From: Candidatus Poseidoniaceae archaeon | GTDB taxonomy: Archaea; Thermoplasmatota; Poseidoniia; Poseidoniales; Poseidoniaceae | Length of the DNA: 40,824 bases | NCBI GenBank assembly: GCA_949373075.1 | Contig: CASIBX010000020.1 | Location: 1-40,824 of the forward strand | Reading direction: 5' to 3' | In this document: positions 17,119-25,576 of the stretch, one piece after another | How the letters are laid out: each line of letters begins with the position of its first letter | How positions within the stretch are numbered: the first letter of the stretch is position 1 | The notes under the pieces: model-generated | Told to the model about the DNA's origin: nothing | The model's database searches: none | What the model saw: the letters and a program-made list of their open reading frames with translations, nothing else | Position numbers and translations under genes: made by a program

Positions 17119-17533
17119 ATTGCCTGCATGCGATGAATGTGGCGAATGGGAAAAGCCGTCATTAGCGGTAGACGCAGTAGCCATTAGAGGCAATGAAATC
17201 CTATTGATTAGGCGAGGGAAAGAGCCTTGGAAAGGTATGCTTGCCCTACCTGGTGGGTTTGTCGACTCAGGTGAGGACCCAGAAGTGGCTGTTATTCGTG
17301 AATTGAAAGAGGAATGTGGGATTGATGGAAAGGTCGTTAGATTACTCTGTGTCAAAGGAGACCCTAACAGGGACCCAAGAGGACATGTTGTCTCGATTGC
17401 ATATCTAGTGGCTGCTTTTGATGAGCCTACTGCAGGAGATGATGCAGCAAGTGCTGCTTGGCATCGCATTTCTGAAGTCGAGGAAATGGCAGGCGACCAT
17501 ATGTCAATCCTTGAGAAGATCAAGCATTTCTGA
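17111..17533 (+). CDS. Nudix hydrolase
   Basis: Hydrolyses a nucleoside-diphosphate-linked substrate. The Nudix box is intact: GGFVDSGEDPEVAVIRELKE followed by ECGI, matching G-x5-E-x7-R-E-U-x-E-E-x-G-U. A short N-terminal Cys pair (CDECGEW) precedes the fold. The overall pattern resembles the ADP-ribose pyrophosphatase/COG1051 group. I chose the GTG at 17111, which overlaps the uppS stop by 8 bases, giving 140 residues and translational coupling; TTG 17120 is an alternative. The 3' end overlaps the convergent DUF354 gene by 30 bases. The substrate is not predictable. Confidence 0.88.
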   Translation: MNELPACDECGEWEKPSLAVDAVAIRGNEILLIRRGKEPWKGMLALPGGFVDSGEDPEVAVIRELKEECGIDGKVVRLLCVKGDPNRDPRGHVVSIAYLVAAFDEPTAGDDAASAAWHRISEVEEMAGDHMSILEKIKHF

Positions 17534-23994: not shown

Positions 23995-24276
23995 TTAAGC
24001 AAAACGTTCGTCCCATTCTCCATTTGCAATTGTGGTCAGAGCGTCCTTAGCCCAGAGACCATCGATCTTTACACGCATTGACACACATGTGCCGATGACC
24101 TCGCGGGTCTGCGCTTTCAGATCTGCTCCAGTAAGGTGGCCGTCGTTTTGCTTTTGGCGAGCGACGTCCATCGCTTTTTCGAGGCTCAAGTCCTCAACAG
24201 CTGCTTCCAAACTTCCATTGCACTTCTTTACACCTAATGCTTTGATGATAAGATGGCTTGTCCAAGGCTTTGGCAT
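23995..24276 (-). CDS. rpl11: Ribosomal protein uL11 lacking the N-terminal domain
   Basis: The 93 residues correspond only to the C-terminal, 23S rRNA-binding domain of uL11: PWTSHLIIKALGVKKCNG matches the linker into that domain, and DLKAQTREVIGTCVSMRVKI is the uL11 signature region. Normal archaeal uL11 is about 140-165 residues with an N-terminal domain containing a proline-rich PPIGQALGP-type motif; none of it is here. The truncation is not a start-calling error: an in-frame TAA lies 18 bases upstream (24292-24294), the ATG has GAGGTG eight bases upstream, and a promoter lies just beyond. It is the first gene of the rpl11-rpl1-rpl10-rpl12 unit. Confidence 0.9.
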   Translation of the reverse strand: MPKPWTSHLIIKALGVKKCNGSLEAAVEDLSLEKAMDVARQKQNDGHLTGADLKAQTREVIGTCVSMRVKIDGLWAKDALTTIANGEWDERFA

Positions 24277-24354: not shown

Positions 24355-25293
24355 TCATTCGACTCTTTCGACGACACGAACGTGATCTCCGCGCATCTTG
24401 AGTGTCATTGGAATAGGCTGTTCGTACAACTCCATGCTGACTTCTTCCTTGGTTTCTGCGACACTAGTAACACGTGCCTTTTCTCCCTTGAATGCGCCAG
24501 TAACAATCTCTACGATACATCCGACTTCGATACCGCTGGTCACTGCCTTTGGTTCTAGGTATGGAAGGATATCTGCAAGAGGTGCTTCACCCGGAAGAAC
24601 GGTTTTAGCGTTCTTTAGTGGTGTTTGGTTTAGACCACGGCGAGCCTTAGGGTCACGGCCACCAGAGCGGCCAATCAACTTCTCTACATGGTGTAGAGCG
24701 CTTGATTCAACCATAACGTATCCTCTCATCCCTGTCGGGTGAAGAATGCCATAGACCTCATCTAAAATTGCTGACAAAGAACCTGAACCCATTAAGCGAG
24801 CTTGCATCTCATCAGCGACTCTCTTCTCTGAACCGATAGCGGTCTTTACGATGAATAGGTATGCTCCTACAGATCCGTACATGTCACGGAATAACTTCTC
24901 ACTGTTTTCCATATCTATATCGGAGAATACACACCAGCGAGGCTTGTTTGCTTCTCTGTCTTCCCATCCAATATTTCCTGGGTCAACCCAAGTTGATTCT
25001 GTGTAACGGCCTGAAGGGGTTACTTCCTTACTTGTGGAAACAACCAAACAAGGTGCGATGTCCTGTAAACGGCCACCAATATCAATTCCCAGAGCAGGTC
25101 CTGCACGGACATATTCTAAGTCTTCCAAAGGAATACCCGTACATTCTGCAACTCGGTTGAGAACATCTTCTTCACTATCCCCAATTCCATAAACTCCGTC
25201 CCAAAGGCCAGGAGAGTCAGAATCAGACTTAGAGCGGCGGAGTAGTAGTAATTCCTCTTCATGGCGAACAAATGCGATAAATGCGTCAGTCAT
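24355..25293 (-). CDS. spt5: Transcription elongation factor Spt5/NusG with an N-terminal degenerate Nudix domain
   Basis: Spt5 binds the RNA polymerase clamp and promotes processivity. The C-terminal part is standard: an NGN domain (about residues 143-250, starting AYLFIVKTAIGSEKRVADEM and including GYVMVESSALHHVEKLI) and a KOW domain (about 255-311, GIEVGCIVEIVTGAFKGEKA). Archaeal Spt5 normally ends there at about 150 residues; this protein has 312. The extra N-terminal 110 residues look like a Nudix fold: FIAFVRHEEELLLLRRSKSD, PGLWDGVYGIGDSEEDVLNR, then VAECTGI, and later TESTWVDPGNIG. The Nudix box has lost its metal-binding glutamates (R-V-A-E-C-T-G where R-E-U-x-E-E-x-G is expected), so it is probably not catalytic. 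ATG 25293 follows GGAGG, 16 bases after the secE stop. Confidence 0.92.
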   Translation of the reverse strand: MTDAFIAFVRHEEELLLLRRSKSDSDSPGLWDGVYGIGDSEEDVLNRVAECTGIPLEDLEYVRAGPALGIDIGGRLQDIAPCLVVSTSKEVTPSGRYTESTWVDPGNIGWEDREANKPRWCVFSDIDMENSEKLFRDMYGSVGAYLFIVKTAIGSEKRVADEMQARLMGSGSLSAILDEVYGILHPTGMRGYVMVESSALHHVEKLIGRSGGRDPKARRGLNQTPLKNAKTVLPGEAPLADILPYLEPKAVTSGIEVGCIVEIVTGAFKGEKARVTSVAETKEEVSMELYEQPIPMTLKMRGDHVRVVERVE

Positions 25294-25309
25294 ATTAATT
25301 CCTCCAATA

Positions 25310-25576
25310 TCAAATTCCGAATACATCGTGAATGATCCACGGAATGAAGTTGTCCATTAGTACCAGCATTACAAACCCGATGAAACCAAGAACGAATAGT
25401 CCGATTCCACAAATAATTGAAGTTTGTTTGAATTCCTGTGGCGTAGGTTTGCGAGCCATACGAATAATACGAGCCCAACTACCGCGAGATATTTTGCGGA
25501 ATTGCGCTTCAATAGCGTCTTGCTTGTCCTGTACCTTATCCTCAAAAGAGCGGGTCTGGTCATTATCATCTGACAT
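25310..25576 (-). CDS. secE: Preprotein translocase subunit SecE (Sec61 gamma)
   Basis: Clamps the SecY channel halves together. This 88-residue protein has the archaeal SecE layout: a charged amphipathic region with IIRMARKPTPQEFKQTSIIC, then one transmembrane helix (GIGLFVLGFIGFVMLVLM) and a short end. About 25 acidic residues precede the helix. ATG 25576 follows GAGGTG. The secE-spt5-rpl11-rpl1-rpl10-rpl12 order is conserved in archaea, which supports the call. Confidence 0.94.
   Translation of the reverse strand: MSDDNDQTRSFEDKVQDKQDAIEAQFRKISRGSWARIIRMARKPTPQEFKQTSIICGIGLFVLGFIGFVMLVLMDNFIPWIIHDVFGI

Follow-up and report, generated by a model that had tools for sequence, protein, structure and literature searches.

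A Nudix-fold domain with a degenerate active site fused to the N-terminus of the elongation factor Spt5 in the Poseidoniales

Overview

The Spt5 protein of a Candidatus Poseidoniaceae archaeon is a genuine in-frame fusion, in which the ordinary NGN and KOW domains are preceded by an N-terminal domain (N-domain) to which independent sequence and modelling methods assign a Nudix fold, the fold of enzymes that process nucleotides or isoprenoids. The gene was analysed within a window of 40,824 nucleotides (contig CASIBX010000020.1, assembly GCA_949373075.1, positions 1 to 40,824), and the fusion was followed through the order to which the organism belongs. All assessable Poseidoniales, in both families of the order, carry it, and a fusion on the stem branch of the Poseidoniales is the best explanation of this distribution. 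The Poseidoniales Spt5 is a new, order-specific domain architecture; no published description of an Spt5–Nudix fusion was found in the open-access literature, and Nudix goes unmentioned in a survey of elongation-factor domains from 2026 (PMC13289920).

The finding bears on a protein that has been regarded, to our knowledge, as the sole transcription factor conserved in all life (NusG/Spt5), and whose archaeal form is treated as a minimal NGN–KOW protein. Among some of the most abundant archaea of the ocean this minimal elongation factor has been rebuilt by an order-wide fusion with what appears to be a retired enzyme domain. A catalytically dead Nudix domain would thereby have joined the transcription machinery, of which the former enzyme domain seems to be a fixed, non-enzymatic part.

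Organization of the spt5 gene

The spt5 gene lies on the minus strand (25293..24355) and encodes 312 amino acids followed by a stop codon. The protein consists of the pseudo-Nudix N-domain (residues 1–108; 24970..25293, minus strand), a linker of 36 residues that runs into the NGN domain (residues 109–144; 24862..24969, minus strand), and the NGN–KOW core (residues 145–312; 24358..24861, minus strand). The core is that of an ordinary archaeal Spt5, as the first-pass annotation had supposed. The window protein scores 94.9 bits against TIGR00405 (E 4.4e-27; cut-off 69.95), and its NGN domain 37.3 bits against PF03439 (cut-off 22.4). The KOW motif alone falls under the cut-off of PF00467 (E 0.0033); NGN–KOW occupies residues 145–310, and the alignment with solved archaeal Spt5 chains runs on to residue 310 (E 5.8e-21). 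By homology, the protein would be expected to bind Spt4 and RNA polymerase. The linker has a helix predicted with low confidence (residues 131–139), at the end of which, just before the NGN domain, Tyr139-Gly140 is present in 70 of 70 relatives. An AlphaFold2 model of the full-length protein is good for the N-domain and part of the KOW only, and the orientation of the domains is left uninterpreted.

A Shine–Dalgarno sequence, GGAGG (25301..25305, minus strand), is found 7 nt before the ATG at 25293, and similar signals stand at the same start in distant relatives. A further in-frame ATG upstream, at 25326, is unsupported by most relatives. No internal stop codon interrupts the frame in any complete relative.

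Fold and subfamily of the N-domain

Profiles were built from an alignment of the N-domains of 31 diverse members, and wider column counts were taken from 70 relatives. Pfam NUDIX matches 19 of the 31 N-domains at E ≤ 1 (best E 2.4e-5), the window protein itself scoring 13.6–15.5 bits, under the gathering score of 21.1. A profile search of the PDB with the N-domain finds Nudix proteins, NudC and MutT-like ones among them, and hhalign scores 71% for the alignment with active Nudix proteins from the order, with shuffled controls at most 12%. The AlphaFold2 model of residues 1–145, made with 32 sequences, has a mean pLDDT of 79; the ten-residue blocks between residues 1 and 100 range from 79 to 97, and the C-terminal helix is of low confidence. 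Foldseek aligns the N-domain model to 415 PDB chains at E ≤ 0.001, the best 50 of the 415 all being Nudix proteins, and the highest TM values, of about 0.67–0.73, are to M. mazei MutT and BdRppH. The predicted topology (strand–strand–box helix–strands) is that of the MutT/RppH/NudC-type hydrolases, and the last Nudix strand ends at WVDPG (residues 102–106; 24976..24990, minus strand), of which W102 and D104 are invariant. A Nudix fold closing on W-V-D-P (residues 102–105) had been proposed from the sequence of the window alone, and both the profile searches and the structure prediction bear this relationship out.

The best-supported subfamily for the N-domain, although not proven, is that of the type-1 isopentenyl-diphosphate isomerases (Idi-1), whose profile fits the domain over its whole length and above the other Nudix enzymes tested. 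TIGR02150 (Idi-1) matches 16 of the 31 N-domains, with a best single-domain E of 1.3e-4; the score of about 20 bits for two listed Spt5 N-domains does not reach the cut-off of 105.8. Aligned by hhalign with the Idi-1 proteins of the Poseidoniia, the N-domain scores 90% across 102 of 110 columns (E 1.5e-6), and shuffled controls give at most 1.8%. A NudC-type affiliation was rejected, as NudC, the top PDB sequence match, is weak (E 0.012) and Idi-1 fits better across the whole domain.

At a distance of 7 kb from spt5, on the plus strand (17159..17497), is a gene for a canonical Nudix hydrolase whose box is intact. It was considered as a recent source of the N-domain and discarded, since the match to its ADP-ribose-pyrophosphatase-like group is poorer (84% over 56 columns). 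The Idi-1 of most Poseidoniales itself sits, at L319 (G036:C1:1181946-1182473) and similar loci, in an open frame of about 560–630 amino acids; at L319 it is followed in frame by an apparent polyprenyl (geranylgeranyl) diphosphate synthase.

Catalytic residues

The degenerate Nudix box spans residues 31–54 (WDGVYGIGDSEEDVLNRVAECTGI; 25132..25203, minus strand), and its register is set by the TG turn. The canonical box, GX5EX7REUXEEXGU, is not preserved across the order. Where the MutT/RppH/NudC-type hydrolases have REUxEExGU, the Spt5 N-domains have xR(V/I)x(E/D)(C/S/A/V)TG(I/L), so that the first and last Glu of REUxEE are replaced. Position 47, that of the first catalytic Glu (25153..25155, minus strand), is Arg in 68 of the 70 relatives, Lys in one and Cys in one, and position 51, that of the last Glu of the box, is Cys, Ser, Ala or Val in 31 of the 31 diverse members and is never acidic. 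Residue 50, however, is Glu or Asp in 66 of the 70. The first-pass annotation, which took the glutamates of the box (RVAECTG, residues 47–53) to have been replaced, was thus right as to a box degenerate throughout the order, with the refinement that the acidic residue E50 has mostly been retained.

Catalysis in Idi-1 depends on the Cys of a CxHP motif, on His ligands and on an ExE motif. The N-domain shares with these enzymes an FPxxW before the box and a basic residue at the place of the first box Glu. The position equivalent to Arg47 is already basic in Idi-1 sequences, and R47 may go back to an Idi-like ancestor instead of having arisen by charge reversal within a hydrolase. In contrast to Idi-1, the N-domain is fused to Spt5, and its alignments show neither the CxHP motif nor the His ligands of the N-terminal part; of the Idi-1 catalytic motifs all that remains is D78, an acidic residue close to the ExE position. 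Because the residues of the box and of Idi-1 are both missing, catalysis of either the Nudix-hydrolase or the Idi-1 kind is unlikely, and from these residues the N-domain is very probably no enzyme. A ligand pocket, or weak and unusual catalysis, is nevertheless conceivable, since R10 and R20 never vary, W31 and TG53 are conserved, and most relatives retain E50.

Distribution of the fusion

The fusion of N-domain and Spt5 is present in 102 of 117 genomes of the Poseidoniia. These are 102 of the 107 Poseidoniales, from both families, the second of which (f2) is presumably the Thalassarchaeaceae; the taxon names otherwise follow public records and the NCBI taxonomy. The fusion is absent from all 10 genomes of the sister order, which make up the remaining family in the class (f3) and are taken to be MGIII. 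Of the five Poseidoniales lacking a match, three assemblies (G163, G031 and G215) hold an Spt5 fragment or a partial match, one (G306) has no Spt5 match, and the fifth is G325. As the fusion is order-wide, it is not an artefact of assembly. The survey also found no relative among the Poseidoniales in which Spt5 starts at the NGN domain beside a separate enzyme.

Outside the Poseidoniales, none of the listed matches among 295 Thermoplasmatota genomes includes the N-domain, the matches there covering only the core from about residue 119–146, and no second copy outside Spt5 was found in the Poseidoniia genomes searched. A scan of the DNA of GTDB genomes gave 246 relatives, of which the 80 retained are Poseidoniales or uncultured euryarchaeote records, bar two contigs. 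These two, the Poseidoniales spt5 contigs L164 and L198, lie in one bin labelled as an uncultured Rhodobiaceae bacterium, which is probably a mis-binning. At one locus (L028; G016:C86) the Spt5 frame is broken by an extended stretch of N in the assembled sequence. In genus g7 (L027), an acidic stretch and a motif resembling a C2H2 zinc finger (CSWCG...HKLLH; Pfam E 0.06) precede the pseudo-Nudix domain, and an acidic open stretch likewise precedes it at L099.

Selection and charge

The N-domain is under purifying selection. Within the genus, dN/dS has a median of about 0.06 in the N-domain and of 0.027 in NGN–KOW, rough values given that dS is near saturation, and identity between the two families is 45% for the N-domain and 59% for the core. 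The N-domain has a net charge of about −10 and a pI of 4.3, and the core is near neutral. Such acidity favours the binding of a protein or a small ligand over general RNA binding; the argument is a weak one, however, because active Nudix proteins from the order show a similar acidity.

Proposed role of the N-domain

The loss of catalysis in a fold that is kept under selection suggests a binding role. The first-pass annotation had suggested that the domain might sense nucleotides or RNA ends, or might link polymerase and ribosome. The reading preferred here, which is somewhat favoured overall, is that an Idi-1-like Nudix fold was fused to Spt5 on the stem branch and serves, without catalysis, as a binding module on the elongation complex, its likely function being protein docking. 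In a termination complex of T. kodakarensis the NGN domain contacts the polymerase, Spt4 and the upstream non-template DNA, and the KOW domain contacts FttA (PMC11616081). These contacts would place an N-terminal addition near the NGN side, riding on every elongation complex. The NGN domain would anchor Spt4/5 on the clamp of RNA polymerase, and the linker, in which Tyr-Gly is invariant, would keep the pseudo-Nudix domain at the periphery of the complex. Rigid positioning by the linker is a guess, as its modelled helix is of low confidence. Carried on every Spt5 molecule, the N-domain would most likely dock a protein partner, and a ligand in the old pocket could possibly modulate that docking. 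Among the roles that might be proposed, protein docking ranks first, followed by ligand sensing and then by RNA binding.

A tentative but plausible second reading is that a ligand, either a nucleotide or an isoprenoid diphosphate, still binds in the dead pocket and that the domain thereby reports metabolic state to the elongation complex. R10, R20, W31 and the TG turn vary little or not at all, and active proteins of the MutT-like and Idi-1 kinds share these positions; these residues may, however, be purely structural, and those that bind metal are partly lost. Other catalytically dead Nudix domains serve as sensors, and CFIm25 provides a precedent for an inactive Nudix protein able to bind nucleotides, two of its box glutamates being missing while nucleotide binding is still possible (PMC3695940).

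CFIm25 (NUDT21) is also the model for a rather unlikely reading, in which the N-domain is an RNA-binding module near the RNA exit that helps FttA, the homologue of CPSF73, to choose 3′ ends. Like the N-domain, CFIm25 is a catalytically dead Nudix protein tied to the transcription and processing apparatus, and it binds RNA in the 3′-end processing of eukaryotic mRNA (PMC3695940). It differs in being a separate eukaryotic protein with demonstrated RNA binding, and its likeness to the N-domain was compared at the level of the superfamily only. FttA is bridged to the elongation complex by Spt5 (PMC11616081) and is found across the order. It is usually of full length, including its KH region, which leaves no gap for the N-domain to fill; loss of that region as the reason for a new RNA-binding domain was rejected, FttA being full length in most of the genomes that were compared. 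The strongly acidic character of the N-domain also speaks against RNA binding. Nor is UGUA over-represented behind stop codons, where it occurs at 0.45–0.49 of the expected frequency in the Poseidoniales and at 0.52 in the sister order, which lacks the domain; from these crude gene calls, enrichment of UGUA or U-tracts at 3′ ends shows nothing distinctive between the two orders.

It is improbable that the N-domain has remained an enzyme whose active site has shifted and whose substrates are nucleotides or the ends of nascent RNA. An acidic residue at position 50 in most relatives, a position 39 that is mostly Asp, and a D78 that is always acidic and lies near the catalytic Glu of Idi-1 in the profile alignment are consistent with such a site, but the first Glu of the box is basic, the last is non-acidic throughout, and the Cys and His positions of Idi-1 are absent. 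Finally, the idea that Spt5 begins at the NGN domain, the upstream region being a mis-annotated start or chance read-through, is scarcely credible, for although Met138 stands just before the NGN domain and is Met in 64 of 70 relatives, it is Leu in the other 6, the frame is open in every complete relative, and a chance or mis-called start is ruled out by order-wide conservation, by the Shine–Dalgarno signals that precede the distal ATG even in remote relatives, and by selection on the N-domain.

The Poseidoniales protein provides a compact construct for the question of how Spt5 accessory domains alter pausing, FttA-dependent termination and ribosome coupling.

Neighbouring genes and comparison with other Spt5 proteins

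Upstream of spt5 in the cluster is secE (Sec61 gamma; 25310..25576, minus strand), which matches Pfam SecE just under the cut-off (E 1.6e-4). Downstream is the gene for uL11 (23995..24276, minus strand), which encodes 93 amino acids comprising the RNA-binding domain only (PF00298, E 4.2e-12); the uL11 directly following spt5 had already been described as altered, and it does lack its N-terminal domain. None of 52 Poseidoniales genomes has that domain (PF03946), whereas all of 8 genomes of the sister order do. The adjacent spt5 and uL11 genes were thus both altered at their N-terminal ends along a single branch, a correlation that may or may not reflect a functional link between the loss in uL11 and the fusion to Spt5. 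It would be highly speculative to suppose that an Idi-1-derived pseudo-enzyme was installed on Spt5 on the branch of the uL11 loss as an isoprenoid or nucleotide sensor tuning elongation or ribosome coupling.

With other archaeal Spt5 proteins (TIGR00405; T. kodakarensis 9bct, M. jannaschii 4zn1) the Poseidoniales protein shares the NGN and KOW domains and the gene order secE–spt5–uL11. It differs in its approximately 144 extra N-terminal residues with the Nudix fold, the solved full-length chains that were matched having about 147–163 amino acids and starting at the NGN domain. Within the same phylum, many other Thermoplasmatota Spt5 proteins also have an extra domain N-terminal to the NGN domain. 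In a group of these (L105–L116, for example L106, L114 and L116) it has about 115 amino acids and appears β-sandwich-like, with weak Ig/NEW3-like matches (E 0.004–0.012) and, unlike that of the Poseidoniales, no Nudix match; judged by these matches, it is evidently a separate acquisition.
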